From Saprospiraceae bacterium (GTDB lineage Bacteria; Bacteroidota; Bacteroidia; Chitinophagales; Saprospiraceae): 37,790 nucleotides of DNA. Position 1 is the first letter of the stretch; each line of letters begins with the position of its first letter. This document shows, piece by piece, positions 8,597 through 24,926 of this stretch. The position numbers were made by a program, and so were the translations under genes. The stretch lies in NCBI GenBank assembly GCA_020628725.1, contig JAHDEO010000010.1, forward strand, positions 1-37,790, given 5' to 3'. The notes under the pieces were generated by a model, which worked only from the letters and a program-made list of their open reading frames with translations, ran no database searches and was not told where the DNA came from.

Positions 8597-9577
8597 ATGA
8601 GAGAAATCAGATTCCGCGAAGCCTTGGGCGAAGCGATGTCAGAAGAAATGCGCCGCGATAAAAACGTCTTTTTAATGGGCGAAGAAGTGGCAGAATATAA
8701 TGGTGCCTACAAGGTGAGTAAAGGCATGTTGGACGAATTCGGACCGAAGCGCGTGATTGATACACCAATTGCCGAGTTGGGTTTTACGGGTATTGGCGTA
8801 GGTGCAGCGATGAACGGTTTGCGTCCTATCGTCGAATTTATGACTTGGAACTTTGCTATCCTTGCCTTCGACCAAATCGTGAACAGTGCTGCCAAGATGC
8901 TCTCCATGAGTGGCGGTCAAATTGGTTGTCCTATCGTCTTTCGTGGTGGTACGGGTTCCGCAGGGCAGTTGGCACAGCAACACTCTCAAACTTTTGAATC
9001 GTGGATGGCAAACACACCGGGCTTAAAGGTGATTTCTGTTTCCAACCCATACGATGCAAAGGGTTTGCTCAAATCTGCTATTCGCGACGACGATCCGGTG
9101 TGTTTTATGGAGTCTGAAGTCATGTATTCCGATTTAGGACCGGTACCTGAGGAAGAATACTTACTCCCCATAGGCGTAGCAGACATCAAGCGCGAAGGTA
9201 CAGACGTAACCATCGTTTCCTACAATAAAATGATGAAGGTTGCCCTCGAGGCCGCCGAAGAACTTGCCAAAGAAGGCATCTCGGCGGAGGTCATCGACTT
9301 GCGTACGATTCGTCCATTGGATTACAAAACACTCGTTGAATCTGTCAAAAAGACCAATCGAATGGTCTGCGTAGAAGAGGCTTGGCCCTTTGGTGCGATT
9401 TCGGCAGAGATTGCTTATGAGATGCAAAAATACGCTTTCGATTATCTCGATGCACCCATCACACGTATCACGGGCGCAGATACTTCGATGTCTTACTCGC
9501 CTGTTCTTGTAGAGGCTTTTCTACCAAATGCAGCGCGCGTAGTCAAGGCAGTTAAAGAAGTTATGTACGTAGCATAA
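8597..9577 (+). CDS. pdhB: Pyruvate dehydrogenase E1 component subunit beta
   Basis: MREIRFREALGEAMSEEMRRDKNVFLMGEEVAEYNGAYKVSKGML...GPKRVIDTPIAELGFTGIGVGAAMNGLRPIVEFMTWNF... is typical PDH E1 beta. The track start at 8441 adds a non-conserved extension, so ATG 8597 is preferred. Confidence 0.95.
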   Translation: MREIRFREALGEAMSEEMRRDKNVFLMGEEVAEYNGAYKVSKGMLDEFGPKRVIDTPIAELGFTGIGVGAAMNGLRPIVEFMTWNFAILAFDQIVNSAAKMLSMSGGQIGCPIVFRGGTGSAGQLAQQHSQTFESWMANTPGLKVISVSNPYDAKGLLKSAIRDDDPVCFMESEVMYSDLGPVPEEEYLLPIGVADIKREGTDVTIVSYNKMMKVALEAAEELAKEGISAEVIDLRTIRPLDYKTLVESVKKTNRMVCVEEAWPFGAISAEIAYEMQKYAFDYLDAPITRITGADTSMSYSPVLVEAFLPNAARVVKAVKEVMYVA

Positions 9578-12817: not shown

Positions 12818-12881
12818 TTTTAGATTTTTGATTGAGTGATTTTTGATTTGCAATTATACATGAGAACGACGCAAAAATAAC

Positions 12882-13001
12882 TTTACCATTTGACTTGTTC
12901 TTTTTCCCTTCTTCTCCGTTATGAAAATCCTTACGTAGCTCGGCTATGCGCGGTTTTCACGCCTCGAATAAGAAAAAAATAACGGCGTCAAAGTTGGTAA
13001 A
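12882..13001. repeat. Structured intergenic element, copy 1
   Basis: TTTACCA-TTTGAC (12882-12894) pairs with GTCAAAGTTGGTAAA (12987-13001). Interior shares GACTTGTTCTTTTTCC, CTTCTCC, CTCGGCTATGCGCG and AAGAAAAAAATAACGGCG with copy 2. Confidence 0.8.
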
Positions 13002-13019
13002 TTTATTTTTTCCTCGTTT

Positions 13020-13048
13020 CATTGAATTTTGCGAAGCAAAATTCAATG
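13020..13048. repeat. Perfect 13-bp hairpin with GAA triloop (GCGAAGC apex)
   Basis: CATTGAATTTTGC-GAA-GCAAAATTCAATG. Confidence 0.9.
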
Positions 13049-13173
13049 AAAAATCAAAAATCACTCAATCTAAAATGATTCATCTATTCATTTAATGACT
13101 TTATCTAAAAAATCCCTTCAATACGTATCTCTGCGTTAATTTAAAACGTCTAAAAAAACAATTCTAACCACTT

Positions 13174-16175: not shown

Positions 16176-16180
16176 TAAGA

Positions 16181-16295
16181 TGAATGAGTGAGTGAATGAA
16201 TTTTGAATGAATGAATTTGTAATGGGTAAATGAGTAAATGTCATTGACGCATTAGATATTCACTCATTTACTCATTCACAATTCACTCATTCGAG
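16181..16295. repeat. TGAATGAG-type octamer word arrays, inverted pair, overlapping the CDGSH gene stop
   Basis: Left TGAATGAG TGAGTGAA TGAATTTT GAATGAAT ... AATGGGTA AATGAGTA AATG; right CACTCATT TACTCATT CACAATT CACTCATT CG. Confidence 0.75.
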
Positions 16296-16529: not shown

Positions 16530-16567
16530 GTTAATGAGTGAATTATGAATTATGAATGAATGAATGT

Positions 16568-16650
16568 CTAATGCGACAATGCGGTAATGATACAATGCGA
16601 TAATAGGAAAACATTGTAGCATTAACGCATTGTATCATTGTCGCATTATA
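16568..16650. repeat. Octamer-word inverted repeat between the CDGSH and OMP genes
   Basis: TAATGCGA CAATGCGG TAATGATA CAATGCGA TAATAGG vs ATTGTAGC ATTAACGC ATTGTATC ATTGTCGC ATTATAAG; AATGCGACAATG and ATACAATGCG have exact reverse complements in the right arm. Confidence 0.85.
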
Positions 16651-17311
16651 AGCGAAAACGAAGTCCGAAACGGAAATTCAGATGATTGGTCTTGGAGGCA
16701 ACACGTCCGTCAGAGAGGCGAATTGCGCCACTATCGGTATCTGTGATACTACGATACACGGTATGTGTGCCGGAATTGGCAAGTGTCGCGAAGTCCAATG
16801 AAAGTGGCGTGGAGCAGAAATTAATCTGAAAGCCCGCGCCAATTCCTGCGTTGAAAGCCGTTCCGTGAAATCGAGTGATGTCGTCAAAATAAGGTGTGGT
16901 TTCTACTGCCAATCGTGTGCTGAAAAACGACGTACCGCCAAGCCGACCTTCGAGGTAAGGATTGATGAAGGCGTGTTTGAAGGCACTGTATCGGGCCACT
17001 GCCGCGTAGCTCAAATAGCAATCTTCTTCGTACAAGGTGATAAATTCGCCCGGACGCCCTTCCTCGCTCAATTCATATCTAAATTCATCGTCGAAGAACA
17101 TGGCAACACCCAATTCTCCACCAACACTCAAGCGACTTTCTTTGACACTTCTCACGAAATCGAAAGAAATTCCCGCAGGTAAGCGATTGATATTTTCTTT
17201 GAATTCTTGTTGAGGATTCGCAAGGTTGAAATTTAAACCAAATGAAGATTGTGCCTGAACAAAAGAAATACTAAGGACACATAATAATATCGGTAACAAG
17301 TATGTTTTCAT
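16646..17311 (-). CDS. Predicted outer-membrane beta-barrel protein
   Basis: MKTYLLPILLCVLSISFVQAQSSFGLNFN... signal peptide; alternating beta pattern ending NHLNFRFGLRFRL. Start moved from 17338 to the ATG at 17311. Confidence 0.75.
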   Translation of the reverse strand: MKTYLLPILLCVLSISFVQAQSSFGLNFNLANPQQEFKENINRLPAGISFDFVRSVKESRLSVGGELGVAMFFDDEFRYELSEEGRPGEFITLYEEDCYLSYAAVARYSAFKHAFINPYLEGRLGGTSFFSTRLAVETTPYFDDITRFHGTAFNAGIGAGFQINFCSTPLSLDFATLANSGTHTVYRSITDTDSGAIRLSDGRVASKTNHLNFRFGLRFRL

Positions 17312-17464
17312 AAGCAATAGTGTCGTGATTTGCATCAAATTTATTACAAATCAAATTAATAAATAGTTATAATTGTTTGATGGTAAAATTGTTCGATTGA
17401 AAGATAATTTAAAACAAGATAGATTTTTCCCGTAAAAAATACAAGTGAATAGTAATCGGTTGAC

Positions 17465-17851
17465 TCGTTAATTCGTGATTCATGATTCGTGATTCGCTGA
17501 TATTGGGTTTGTTAATTTATTTGTTTTCTTAGTTAAATATTTGATTATCAGCGCAGTAGGTGGGGGCTGTGTATGAATTATGGTTGAATTGATTAATTTA
17601 TTTTGCATGTAATCAATAATCACATTAATTTTAGGATTTTTTAATGGGGTTATGAAATACGAGTTAACGAGTCACTAAGTATCAGGAACAAAATATATGT
17701 TCTTTCTCGACTTGTTCTTTTTCCTTTAGACTTCTCCAAATTCTCCTTAAATAACTCGGCTATTCGCGTCAAATTTGGCTCGTCTAAAGAAAAAATAACG
17801 ACGCGAAGAAAGAACATTTATTTAATTCCTGATACTAATCACGAATTAACG
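17465..17851. repeat. Nested composite palindrome upstream of the RlpA gene
   Basis: CGTTAATTCGTGATT (17465-17479) is the exact reverse complement of 17837-17851. Inside it, 17678-17707 pairs with 17807-17836 (27/30). Confidence 0.8.
17678..17836. repeat. Structured intergenic element, copy 2
   Basis: AGTATCAGGAACAAAATATATGTTCTTTCT pairs with AGAAAGAACATTTATTTAATTCCTGATACT. Interior TTTAGAC/GTCTAAA and CCAAATT/AATTTGG stems around CTCGGCTATTCGCG. Confidence 0.82.
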
Positions 17852-17917
17852 AATTACGACCCCGTGAATTGGCATTTTTATTGCATCTTTTAACTGAATT
17901 AAAAATTAAATAAAAAT

Positions 17918-18625
17918 ATGAATACTTTACTGAAAATCAGTTTCTTAATATTATTTGGGATTTTAACGCAAACTGCTTTTGCACAGCAAGCGGAGTATGG
18001 TTTAGCTATGCGTTATTCCGATAAATTGCAAGACACAAAAACTTCAAGTGGCGAACCGTATGACGCTGCCGAGTTGACTGCCGCACACAAAACATTGCCT
18101 TTTGATACGAAGGTAATCGTAACCAATTTGAATAATAACAAATCAGTAACGGTACGCATCAACGATAGAGGACCTTTCGTGAAAGGACGCGTAATTGATT
18201 TGTCGGGCAAGGCTGCGGCACGTATAGGTATCGCGGAAGGCAAAGAAGCGAAGGTCAAAGTGGCTGTTGTGGGCAAGAGCCAACCTGCCGTAACAACCAC
18301 GACCAAACCTGCCAAAAAAGCGACACCACCTCCGACAAAAAAGACGACTCCCGCTAAAGTAGAAACCAAAACCGCAACGCGTTCACTCGGCGTTTCGTCG
18401 GCTAAGGGTTACGGTATACAGGTTGGCGCGTACAAGAGCGAAGCCAATGCGCGCAAGCGTGTAAAGGCATTGGAAGCTGAGTGGTATTCTGATATTCATA
18501 TTAAAAAAAGCAAAACAGCGTATAAAGTTATTTTGAAAAATTACCCAACGAAGGAGCAAGCAGAGTCATATTTGATTTCTTTGAAGAAGAAAGGTATCGA
18601 CGGTTTTGTGGTGAGTATGAAGTAG
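17918..18625 (+). CDS. RlpA-like double-psi beta-barrel protein with C-terminal SPOR domain
   Basis: AQQAEYGLAMRYSDKLQDTKTSSGEPYDAAELTAAHKTLPFDTKVIVTNLNNNKSVTVRINDRGPF; C-terminus GYGIQVGAYKSEANARKRVKALEAE... Confidence 0.92.
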   Translation: MNTLLKISFLILFGILTQTAFAQQAEYGLAMRYSDKLQDTKTSSGEPYDAAELTAAHKTLPFDTKVIVTNLNNNKSVTVRINDRGPFVKGRVIDLSGKAAARIGIAEGKEAKVKVAVVGKSQPAVTTTTKPAKKATPPPTKKTTPAKVETKTATRSLGVSSAKGYGIQVGAYKSEANARKRVKALEAEWYSDIHIKKSKTAYKVILKNYPTKEQAESYLISLKKKGIDGFVVSMK

Positions 18626-20546: not shown

Positions 20547-23500
20547 ATGAAACGATTGATTTTTTTATTGATGACTGCCTTGTTTTGCGGCTGTCTGTCA
20601 GCCCAATGCCCACAAGGAAATATCACATTGACCACACAACAAGAAGTGGATAATTTTGCTGCGAATTATCCAAACTGTACGGAGCTACTTGGGAACCTTA
20701 GTATTGACGATGATTACACCAGTTCCATCACTTCATTAGCCGGGCTTAGTCAAATCACTGCCGTTGGTGGAGATGTGGATATTATCTACAATGATAACTT
20801 AACGAATTTGACAGGATTAAATAATCTGACTTCTATTGGTGGATATTTGAATATTGACGGTAATGATGGCTTGACGAATCTGACGGGATTGGATAATTTG
20901 AATTCTATTTCCAGATATTTGAGTATTGACGATAACGATGGCTTGACGAATTTGGCAGGCTTGGATAATCTGACTCATATTGGCGGATTCTTGGAAATGC
21001 AATGGAATGATAACCTAATGGATGTCAGCGCATTGGACAATGTTGCATCTTCTACGCTTATAGGCTTAAAAATTTGGCAAAATCCGAAGTTGACAGCTCT
21101 ACCTGATTTTAACAATCTTACGGCTATTATAGGAAGAGTATGGATTGCAGGTAATGATAACTTGACGGATTTTATGGGTTTGGATAATGTGACGACTATT
21201 GGGGGATTTTTGGAGCTTGATTATAATGATAACATAACGGATATGACCGGATTAAATAGTCTGACCTCTATTGGTGAGCATATGCACATTCACGATAATG
21301 ATAATTTGGTTGATTTTAGCGGCATGAATAACCTGACAACTATCGGGGGAGATGTTGAGATTGGAGGGAATAATAGCAGCCTTACCAGTCTCAATGGGCT
21401 TAATAATTTAATGTCTATAAACGGTCATTTACATATCAAGTACAACCCAATAATTAGTGATATAAGCGCATTAGAAAATGTCGATATGTCAAATGTGACT
21501 GATATAGATATTTACGGCAATTCCAATCTTTCCTTTTGTGGCATCACAAGCATCTGTGATTATCTTGAAGCAGGGGGAACATACTACTTTTCAAATAATG
21601 CAACAGGTTGTAATAGCTATGAAGTATATGCCTCATGTGACGTCCAGCCTTCTTGTGATGATGAAACGGTTACATTTACTTCGCAGGCACAAATAGATAA
21701 TTTTTCATCCAATAATCCCAACTGCACCGAAATAGCGGGTAATGTCCATATATATTCTTCTGCGGTAAATTCCGATATCACCAATTTGGACGGACTTAGT
21801 CAGATTACTTCTATCTCAGGGAATCTTATCATTACAAGCAATACCAACCTGAGTACAATAATGGGTTTGAGCAATCTGACTACACTTGGTGGGTATCTTT
21901 ATATGTTGGGTAATTCTACACTGACAAGCCTCGCGGGGCTTGAAAATCTGGATTTTACACCAATTTCTGACGTAACAATCAGAGATAACGATGCGTTGAG
22001 CATTTGCGGACTTGAGGGGCTGTGTGCCTACCTCGAAAATAATGGTTCAGCTACTATTTTCAATAACGGTCCGGGGTGCGATAGTCCCGCAGAGGTATTA
22101 TTATTCTGCAACCCACCTGATGATATAGATATGGACTTTGGCACAAATGGTACCGTTGATATTGCAGGTCACGATGTCACTTGTATGCTCGCGCAACCCG
22201 ACGACAAGTTAGTCATATTTGGTTCAAGTGTCTTACGGCTCAATCCTGATGGTACATTGGATACGAGCTTTGGTGCAAGTGGCGTGGCATCCATAGGCGG
22301 TTTTGAAGGCGTTTTACAACCTGATGGTAAAATCGTCGTCTTGGCAGCCGACCAACTCGCCCGACTCAATGCTGACGGTACATTGGATGCTACTTTTGGT
22401 ACAGGCGGTACACGTCCACTCATTGCTCCTGCCAAAGACATTGCCCTTAGCCTTGACGGAAAAATCGTTACTTCAGATACAGAACTTGTCCGTTATAATG
22501 CGGATGGTTCGGTAGACACTGCTTTTGGGAGCAATGGTATCGTTAGCATTGAAGTACAGGCTTATCATTATGGCGAATATCCCGGTGCTCCACAAGTTCT
22601 AAAGACGTACTATCCCTCCTCCCATGTCGTCGTCAAATCAGATGGAAAAATTGTCGTAGCCGGAGATTTTGCCTATCAATCTCGTTACAATCCTGAGTAT
22701 ATTATTTATTACAATCAGCGACGATGTCTTTTAGGATATAATGCGGATGGTACGAAGGATAGCAATTTCAATGAATGGATAGAGGGTTGGTATCAAGGCG
22801 ATGTATTTAGTTATGTTGGTGATCTGCTATTGTTACCTGATGATGAATTTGTGATGTTGAGCAGCAATGATTTTGAATTGGAGGGCAATTTATGTATGAA
22901 TCAATACGATGCCAATGGTGCATTTATTGACAGTAATTGTACCTACACTTCACTCTGCGGAGATTCCTACTATTACGGTGCATTATGGTCGAAAGCTACA
23001 GTAGCTGATTGCGGTATTTTTGCTTTTGGTGAATACGGCACTATCTTCGGAAATACCTGTAAATTCCTCACACGTACTGATTATGATGGTACACCTTTTA
23101 GTGGATTTGGGGATAATGGCGGTGTTGCACTTCCCGTTGTTGCGGGCACTGAGACAGCAGATATTGCCCTTCAATCCGATGGCGGTATTATCGTTGCGGG
23201 AAATTCGGCAACAGGTATCGTACTCGCTCGCCTCAGTAATGACGAAGCCTGCAATCCCTTATTCTTGCTCACCGAACCACCATCTCCTCCATCTGACCCT
23301 TGCGGCGGAACACCTGCAACTACCGACTCACTTACACACATATTCGACGAAGACTTATTCATCGATGGAGTAGGCTTCGCCAATAATCCAACTGTAACTT
23401 TCACCGACCCTGCTACGCCAGCAGATGCCGTATTATCGGATATTTCGCTCGAATTATATTTTAGATTAAATGGCAATTCATGTGAAAATGAAATCGCCCT

Positions 23501-24926
23501 ACAAATCACCGACCCGGCAGGTAATACGCAACCTTTGACGGCTTATACTACTTGCGATGGCGGCAATGGTTTATATTATGTGAATTTAAATGTCCCTTCG
23601 GGAAATACAACAGGCAGCACAGCCGATTGGCTCGTCGAATTTGACGATACCAACGACCAAAATTCCGGCTATGAATATTCCGTTCGATTTGCCCGTTTAA
23701 ATTATGTTGCAACGACCGGAGGCGGTGGCGAGACCATCGTAAATGAAGTTTCCGACTTTGCCGATTCTGATTTATTTATTGACGGAGTTGGTTTTGCAAA
23801 TAACGGAACATATACCTTCACCGACCCCGGTACACCTGCCAATGCGGTCTTATCCGACATTTCGCTCGAATTATATTTCAGATTAAATGGTGCATCATGT
23901 GAAAATGAAATCGCCCTACAAATCACCGACCCGGCAGGTAATACACAACCTTTGACGGCTTACACCACTTGTGATGGCGGCACGGGTTTATTCTATGTGA
24001 ATTTGGATGTACCAAGTGGAAACACCACAGGCAGTGTAGCCGATTGGGTTGTACAATTTGACGATACCAATGACCAAAATGCAGGTTACGAATACTCCGT
24101 TCGTTTTGGCAGATTAACCTACACGACTACGTATACGGAAGGTGGAGGCGGCATGGCTGTCACTGTAAATGATGAAGTTTCCGACTTTGCGGATTATGAT
24201 TTATTCATTGATGGCGTTGGTTTCGCAAATAACGGAACATATACCTTCACCGACCCCGGTACACCTGCGGACGCAATTTTATCCAATATTTCCCTCGAAT
24301 TATATTTTAGATTAAATGGCAATTCATGCGAAAATGAAATCGCCATCCAAGTCACCGACCCCGCAGGTAATACACAGCCTTTGACTGCCTACACGACTTG
24401 TGATGGTGGCAATGGTTTGTATTATGTCAATTTAGATGTACCAAGTGGAAACACGACAGGCAGCATGGCAGACTGGCTCGTCGAATTCGACGATACCAAC
24501 GACCAAAACTCAGACTACGAATACTCTATCCGCTTCGGTAGATTAACCTATGATGTGGAGTATACAGAGTGCGTACCCATGTTGGTCAATGAAGAAAACA
24601 CATCAGCACATCAGTACATCAACACGTCAGCACAAGAAAACGTCAATTCATCAACTCGACAACTCAACAACTCGTCATTGAAACTCTACCCCGTGCCTGC
24701 AAATCATCATTTGAATGTAGAATATTTTTCGGAAAATACGCACCCGATGAATATTGAAATTCTTTCAAATGAAGGCAAAACTTTGGTGTCAAGTCAGGAA
24801 AATTTACAAGAAGGGATGAATACCATTCAACTGGATATAGCCGACCTTCCCGCAGGACATTATCATATTCGTATGTATAATGCGGATGATATGCAGATGC
24901 AATCTTTTGTAAAAATTACGCCATAG
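20547..24926 (+). CDS. Secreted L-domain-like/leucine-rich protein with delta-60-like propeller repeats, three beta-sandwich repeats and T9SS type A sorting domain
   Basis: 1459 aa; two C-P-x-G...TTQQEVDNFAANYPNCTEL L-domain-like modules with GLDNLTSIGG repeats; LNPDGTLDTSFGASGV repeats; three DLFIDGVGFANN...FDDTNDQN.GYEYSVRF repeats; C-terminal LKLYPVPANHHLNVEY... Confidence 0.92.
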   Translation: MKRLIFLLMTALFCGCLSAQCPQGNITLTTQQEVDNFAANYPNCTELLGNLSIDDDYTSSITSLAGLSQITAVGGDVDIIYNDNLTNLTGLNNLTSIGGYLNIDGNDGLTNLTGLDNLNSISRYLSIDDNDGLTNLAGLDNLTHIGGFLEMQWNDNLMDVSALDNVASSTLIGLKIWQNPKLTALPDFNNLTAIIGRVWIAGNDNLTDFMGLDNVTTIGGFLELDYNDNITDMTGLNSLTSIGEHMHIHDNDNLVDFSGMNNLTTIGGDVEIGGNNSSLTSLNGLNNLMSINGHLHIKYNPIISDISALENVDMSNVTDIDIYGNSNLSFCGITSICDYLEAGGTYYFSNNATGCNSYEVYASCDVQPSCDDETVTFTSQAQIDNFSSNNPNCTEIAGNVHIYSSAVNSDITNLDGLSQITSISGNLIITSNTNLSTIMGLSNLTTLGGYLYMLGNSTLTSLAGLENLDFTPISDVTIRDNDALSICGLEGLCAYLENNGSATIFNNGPGCDSPAEVLLFCNPPDDIDMDFGTNGTVDIAGHDVTCMLAQPDDKLVIFGSSVLRLNPDGTLDTSFGASGVASIGGFEGVLQPDGKIVVLAADQLARLNADGTLDATFGTGGTRPLIAPAKDIALSLDGKIVTSDTELVRYNADGSVDTAFGSNGIVSIEVQAYHYGEYPGAPQVLKTYYPSSHVVVKSDGKIVVAGDFAYQSRYNPEYIIYYNQRRCLLGYNADGTKDSNFNEWIEGWYQGDVFSYVGDLLLLPDDEFVMLSSNDFELEGNLCMNQYDANGAFIDSNCTYTSLCGDSYYYGALWSKATVADCGIFAFGEYGTIFGNTCKFLTRTDYDGTPFSGFGDNGGVALPVVAGTETADIALQSDGGIIVAGNSATGIVLARLSNDEACNPLFLLTEPPSPPSDPCGGTPATTDSLTHIFDEDLFIDGVGFANNPTVTFTDPATPADAVLSDISLELYFRLNGNSCENEIALQITDPAGNTQPLTAYTTCDGGNGLYYVNLNVPSGNTTGSTADWLVEFDDTNDQNSGYEYSVRFARLNYVATTGGGGETIVNEVSDFADSDLFIDGVGFANNGTYTFTDPGTPANAVLSDISLELYFRLNGASCENEIALQITDPAGNTQPLTAYTTCDGGTGLFYVNLDVPSGNTTGSVADWVVQFDDTNDQNAGYEYSVRFGRLTYTTTYTEGGGGMAVTVNDEVSDFADYDLFIDGVGFANNGTYTFTDPGTPADAILSNISLELYFRLNGNSCENEIAIQVTDPAGNTQPLTAYTTCDGGNGLYYVNLDVPSGNTTGSMADWLVEFDDTNDQNSDYEYSIRFGRLTYDVEYTECVPMLVNEENTSAHQYINTSAQENVNSSTRQLNNSSLKLYPVPANHHLNVEYFSENTHPMNIEILSNEGKTLVSSQENLQEGMNTIQLDIADLPAGHYHIRMYNADDMQMQSFVKITP
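22120..23250 (+). other. Delta-60-repeat-like beta-propeller region (approximate bounds)
   Basis: MDFGTNGTVDI...QPDDKLVIFGSSVLRLNPDGTLDTSFGASGV...QPDGKIVVLAADQLARLNADGTLDATFGTGG... Confidence 0.8.
23330..24560 (+). repeat. Three tandem ~410-430 bp coding repeats (P-domain-like beta-sandwich, tentative)
   Basis: DLFIDGVGFANNPTVTFTDPATPADAVLSDISLELYFRLNGNSCENEIALQITDPAGNTQPLTAYTTCDGGNGLYYVNLNVPSGNTTGS.ADWLVEFDDTNDQNSGYEYSVRFARLNY and two near-copies. Confidence 0.9.

Follow-up and report, generated by a model that had tools for sequence, protein, structure and literature searches.

A MITE-like palindromic element with a conserved, structured core and exchangeable ends in the Saprospiraceae

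The usual view is that a MITE is a decayed copy of a single local insertion sequence (IS), whose ends have been kept and whose interior is lost or arbitrary. Derivation by internal deletion of local ISs is common (PMC10969869), and the BrickBuilt element of P. gingivalis is a MITE with IS5-family ends and a non-IS interior that has no BLASTn matches outside its own species (PMC4596501). Other described repeats of comparable form are ERIC, RU-1, RU-2 and the Rickettsia palindromic elements (PMC2759123, PMC10969869), as well as the REPs and REPINs associated with RAYT (PMC2817692). The element described here has the short length, terminal inverted repeats (TIRs), target-site duplications (TSDs) and absence of coding capacity by which MITEs are recognized. 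Like bacterial MITEs in general and BrickBuilt in particular, it is gene-free and AT-rich, and in one complete genome its IS5-type TIRs are common to full-length ISs while its interior is not IS-derived; unlike BrickBuilt, it carries one structured core, which occurs in several phyla and is framed by many unrelated TIRs. With ERIC, the RU elements and the Rickettsia palindromic elements it has in common a length of ~100–170 bp, a palindromic organization, dispersal and long hairpins; compared by description, those repeats come from particular bacterial groups, whereas the present core spans phyla and its ends are swapped. Searches of an open-access literature library turned up no description of an element built on this core. 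What sets it apart among MITE-like elements is that the interior is unusually conserved and structured, while the ends are exchangeable.

Two copies lie in the window (the whole stretch of 37,790 nucleotides that was analyzed, from a Saprospiraceae bacterium). Copy 2, a member of subfamily A (TIR GTATCAGGAAC...), occupies 17679–17835 on the plus strand (157 bp, with ends fixed by subfamily alignment) and is directly adjoined by a TAA duplication, to which no strand is assigned, at 17676–17678 and 17836–17838. Its host spacer runs from an unassigned minus-strand gene at 16646–17338 to a plus-strand rlpA-like gene at 17918–18625, whose product has DPBB and SPOR domains. An earlier note on this DNA had reported outer arms at 17678–17707 and 17807–17836; inverted-repeat analysis confirmed the pairing (30 nt, 27/30 or 90% complementary) but not the extent, as the outermost bases belong to the TSD and the arms of the element proper, which are its TIRs, are 17679–17707 (plus) and 17807–17835 (minus). 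Both inner stems that had been reported were also found: TTTAGAC (17725–17731) with GTCTAAA (17782–17788), and CCAAATT (17736–17742) with AATTTGG (17772–17778). As single-stranded DNA, the hairpin has a predicted energy of −31.5 kcal/mol versus −10.96 ± 2.68 for shuffled sequences (z −7.7; 0/200), confirming that the palindrome is real and that its hairpin is far beyond chance. The conserved core spans 17710–17804 (plus), scoring 108 bits with R1, a covariance model of the element's middle built from 22 sequences of the host genome only, and 72.4 bits (E 6.7e-14) with R2. The window's ORF list contains no ORF of at least 80 aa inside this copy.

Copy 1 (12863–13020, plus strand, 158 bp) belongs to subfamily F, whose TIR, GGAACGACGCAAAAATAAC, is here decayed to AGAACGACGC..CGTTTC. 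Its core lies at 12893–12988 (plus strand; R1 76.1 bits, R2 91.8 bits). The trinucleotides ATG (12860–12862, strand not assigned) and ATT (13021–13023), which agree in 2/3 bases, are probably its decayed TSD; other subfamily F members have direct TSDs of TTA, ATA, TTG and TAA. This copy is surrounded by an array palindrome with its left arm at 12824–12849 (plus) and the partner arm at 13051–13076 (inverted repeat I5).

That both window copies are enclosed by inverted repeats made of word arrays, as the earlier note had stated, is correct, and for copy 2 the history of this arrangement can be read from the flanks. The left arm of an older word-array palindrome lies at 17461–17500 (plus; inverted repeats I2 and I3), and the right-hand array (minus) is in two pieces, 17652–17675 (I2) and 17839–17859 (I3), that become continuous on excision of the element. 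We recovered the enclosing pair as an exact 16-nt inverted repeat (17465–17480 and 17837–17852), with the correction that the word given as its start, CGTTAATTCGTGATT, begins at 17466. The left arm pairs also with 17652–17674 (20/23), immediately left of the element, so that a copy of the word from the right-hand array stands on either side of the element. Computational excision of 17679–17835, joining the flanks with one TAA, yields an unbroken word array (...ACGAGTTAACGAGTCACTAATCACGAATTAACGAATTACGA), which places the insertion in the right arm of the older palindrome. The window copy thus arose by a single insertion event in a pre-existing structure.

These observations bear on two proposals of the earlier note, of which only the location of the core amid array sequence survives, as a place of insertion. 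The first was that array arms and core form one mobile composite unit. Array inverted repeats do enclose both window copies, and many other copies are located within arrays; however, the TSDs abut the TIRs of the element rather than the arrays, excision of the element alone rebuilds the array, and arrays occur at background frequency and are different at each site, so that we consider a composite extremely improbable. The second, a preference for insertion at array apices, is not supported, with copy 2 in an array arm and copy 1 between the arms of its array. Nor are arrays a general companion of the core: about half of the copies lack flanking arrays, the kind of copy that the note itself had named as counter-evidence, and full-length copies L003 and L007 have none alongside. 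We compared 41 element-bearing spacers, with the element computationally excised, with 103 length-matched controls (genes being simple ORF calls). Array-type inverted repeats with a score of at least 20 were present in 56% of the former versus 48% of the latter (resampling fraction 0.19); at a score of 18, one of five thresholds, the fraction was 0.047. We see no convincing enrichment of arrays around elements, nor does the core have any one array as a constant neighbor. In the host's own genome, array-type inverted repeats are found in about half of all spacers, with or without an element, and the nesting of the element in word arrays is incidental.

The arrays are themselves dispersed repeats: window segments 16531–16651, 16180–16292 and 13024–13081 match dozens of places at 75–95% identity, counted in the own and same-genus genomes. 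Each array is built from a limited set of degenerate words, and the majority of arrays form inverted repeats. A possible parallel is offered by the direct word repeats of Beggiatoaceae (TAACTGA; PMC4679880). A repeat of another kind lies at 23355–24550 of the window, where 429-bp units are tandemly repeated within an ORF of 1459 aa.

Occupied and empty sites in relatives had been proposed as a check. Two genomes, G002 and G004, are syntenic with the window, with genes ~80% identical, and their orthologous spacers are without both window copies; because spacers turn over fast, these results are absences and not clean empty sites. The orthologous spacer of G004 near its rlpA gene (L310:368-464) holds a different family member, with TIR GTAACGAGTAAATAAT and TAA on both sides.

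In the host's own genome (7.24 Mb, 683 contigs), a 159-bp query of the element matched seven full-length places at 90–100% identity, the window's own included, one further place cut short where its contig ends, and many places by the middle only. Eight copies have the ends of the window copy. The R1 search returned ~90 core places in this genome, and core copies occur in all five same-genus genomes and in several other genera of Saprospiraceae. Within the own genome, the core is found under at least nine unrelated TIRs: besides those of subfamilies A and F, these are B (GGCAATTCCC), C (GTGAAGAAATGAGAATAAATTAA), D (GGGAAGAYGAAG), G (AAGTAGGTAAGC), H (GAGGCTGTTTAAAATTATTTG) and I (AGACTTTATT), with further ones besides, and element length is 153–166 bp throughout. 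When ends were set by subfamily consensus alone, 30/33 own-genome copies had a direct 3-bp TSD, against a mean of 10.9 with permuted partners (0/100000 permutations reached 30). The duplicated sequence is mostly TTA or TAA, with ATA, TTG, ATT and AAT also seen, and types ending in AGTA or AGTG have TA on both flanks in 10/10 copies. Copies that are dispersed with TSDs and TIRs indicate that the element is mobile.

Several further copies or relatives of the element deserve mention. A core-less subfamily A palindrome with TAA on both sides lies in the own genome (C161 near 8959–9000; L100:1959-2006), its core probably having been deleted after insertion. G162 is a complete genome from the host's class and has more than 24 element copies; two different core-less palindromes of 49–50 bp with element ends (L380, L381) also occur in it, one with TCT on both sides. 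These core-less palindromes look like independent post-insertion deletions. Each is single, with no visible sign of multiplication, and this hints weakly that the element requires its core in order to spread. In genome G017, two core copies (L060, L076) have similar flanks beyond the palindrome, which suggests a larger repeated unit around the core. A blastn search with two elements found no plasmid or phage carriers; one IMG/VR contig (L395) matches the core pattern.

Y1 transposition normally gives no TSDs or TIRs. This matters for the idea that the element is of the REP/REPIN type and is moved by a RAYT (Y1 HUH) transposase, as it is palindromic, intergenic and multi-copy, and the own genome has nine Y1_Tnp matches. 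Like REPs and REPINs, it is a high-copy extragenic palindrome, but it differs from them in having TIRs and TSDs and no Y1 transposase link: R1 found no core at the Y1 loci tested in the own genome, and two of these loci bear other palindromes, for example ACAGGCTTCCAGCCTG. We consider such an origin very improbable. The repeated palindromes at the two Y1-transposase loci (L147 and L148; GCGAGCTTCCAGCTCG, ACAGGCTTCCAGCCTG) are probably REPs.

The core follows the pattern CTTCGTTG-stem-TCACGTAGC..GGCTATGC-stem-CGCCTTG. A scan of 84,980 species genomes with a pattern taken from the core returned at least 118 stretches, and the matches listed include Saprospirales, Chitinophagales, Prolixibacteraceae, Spirochaeta, Clostridia, Oceanospirillales, Desulfocapsaceae and others. 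Among the matches listed, CGCCT, which was absent from the scan pattern, is found downstream in 93/112, versus 6.5 expected by shuffling. The host-only model R1 also scores cores in several of the genomes from the scan, while matches in Mycolicibacter, Klebsiella and one Clostridia contig look like chance. With heavy compensatory change, and with TIRs and duplication lengths that are specific to the lineage, the core recurs in Bacteroidetes, Spirochaeta, Clostridia, Gammaproteobacteria and Desulfobacterota.

Its fold consists of three stacked helices with conserved internal loops between them, on one defined strand. When 39 diverse cores are aligned, standard pairs fill 89.8% of paired cells, compared with 71% when shuffled and 28–43% when slid. 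Covariation scores 0.503 versus 0.167 for shuffles (0/500 as high), with the caveat that related sequences inflate such shuffle tests. One wobble position is T-G in 35/39 cores, and a second is G-T in 23/39 and otherwise G-C, A-T or T-A. Retained G-T wobbles would be A-C mismatches on the opposite strand, which identifies the plus strand as the one that folds; in the window copy, too, the plus strand bears them. In a palindrome, compensatory change may also come from hairpin-templated repair off its own arm; we infer from the retention of wobbles and internal loops that arm correction is not the sole cause.

Such strong covariation, conserved internal loops and strand-specific G-U wobbles would also be expected of a structured RNA gene family (an sRNA or riboregulator) that had been duplicated incidentally. 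The dispersed copies have TSDs and TIRs, however, we noticed no fixed gene neighbor, and the Rfam covariance models contain no family for the element (sub-threshold matches were plant and animal miRNA hairpins and others far below cut-off). We regard an RNA gene family as unlikely; the role of the core inside a mobile element may nevertheless be that of a structured RNA.

The complete genome G162 points to a candidate transposase. A TIR pattern search there returned ~160-bp elements (ends GAAGTGGTTTAAACTTTT/GAACTCGTTTAAACTTTT) together with five IS-sized pairs (911–929 bp, and about 928 bp in four of them) whose TIRs are GAAGTGATTTAAACTTTT/GAACTCATTTAAACTTTT. The longer pairs encode IS5-family transposases (NF033580 above cut-off; Pfam DUF4096, DDE_Tnp_1). 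G162 thus contains, alongside the element, an IS5-family transposase gene with the same TSD type and TIR. More generally, IS5-family ISs in or near the host family have a TWA TSD and TIR GARNNYGTYTAAAA, which is matched by several element subfamilies, being close to types H, C484 and others; the element differs in having no transposase gene. In G162, similarity between IS and element is limited to the terminal 19–26 bp at each end, and the element is therefore not an internal deletion of that IS.

The element could also be an ordinary MITE that arose from a local IS by internal deletion and whose core is passive, which would explain the match of the G162 TIRs to local IS5-family ISs. Against it are the interior, which is not IS sequence, the conservation of the core structure, and the occurrence of one core in different phyla with TIRs that are unrelated and TSDs that differ in length; we judge this explanation improbable.

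The draft own genome (683 contigs) has two IS5-type ISs with a TTA TSD (L122 and L393), neither with the TIR of the window copies, and no IS with the exact TIR of subfamily A or F (GTATCAGG, GGAACGACGC) was encountered in this draft. A search of the own genome with the full 26-bp TIR of subfamily G returned element copies only and no IS. For the window copies, the single pointer to an IS5-type enzyme is the 3-bp TWA duplication, and this enzyme is accordingly a candidate for their exact subfamily. The complete genome of Draconibacterium orientale has near-identical 160-bp copies with TWA duplications, forming 12 element pairs, and no IS-sized pair with the element's 25-bp TIR. Across relatives, the distribution of one IS5 transposase lineage shows no correlation with element abundance. 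Both results speak against the reading proposed below.

Among lineages, TSD length tracks TIR type and is 2, 3 or 4–5 bp (boundaries were set automatically, with several mis-set inside the TIR and corrected by eye, and the constant CTAG of Chitinophagales could belong to the TIR). Types with AAGTACCC have a TA duplication, those with GACCGTRTTCGG, GAGCCTATCCGG or TACCAAATTG have TWA, and the GGGCACCTCTAAA types of Spirochaeta have 4–5 bp (TTTA, TTGA, TCAA, AAAT, ATACT). Related types in Clostridia and Bacillota have 4 bp (TTAA, TAGC, ATAA).

We propose that this is a gene-free, non-autonomous, palindromic MITE-like element of 153–166 bp that would move either by cut-and-paste or by copy-paste and duplicate a short target (TTA or TAA in the host lineage). 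Catalysis would be provided in trans by transposases of resident ISs, most likely of the IS5 family, for which the element ends would serve as recognition sites. The core between the ends would be ancient, would fold on a single defined strand and would have acquired different TIRs over evolution, such that different transposases would mobilize it in each lineage; TIR switching is the putative route to the diversity of ends. The window copy would represent one such insertion, in the right arm of an array palindrome in the spacer upstream of the rlpA-like gene. Judged from sequence comparison, this reading as a whole, a trans-mobilized, IS5-type MITE-like element whose old structured core gains new TIRs, is probably right. 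The predicted fold of the core, as a single-stranded DNA hairpin or as RNA, may aid movement or persistence. A bolder version, to which we give somewhat less than an even chance, is that a single ancient core is a cross-phylum hyperparasite of ISs that repeatedly takes the TIRs of the available transposase, with TSDs of 2, 3 or 4–5 bp, and whose strand-specific fold is active in mobilization or persistence.

The usual picture of MITEs is here reversed, with a conserved interior and variable ends across phyla, and in these genomes the element gives an explanation for many intergenic hairpins that had lacked one. Should the core prove functional, it would offer (i) a testable case in which a selfish element changes from one transposase to another, and (ii) a defined internal structure that lends itself to assays of its role in mobility.
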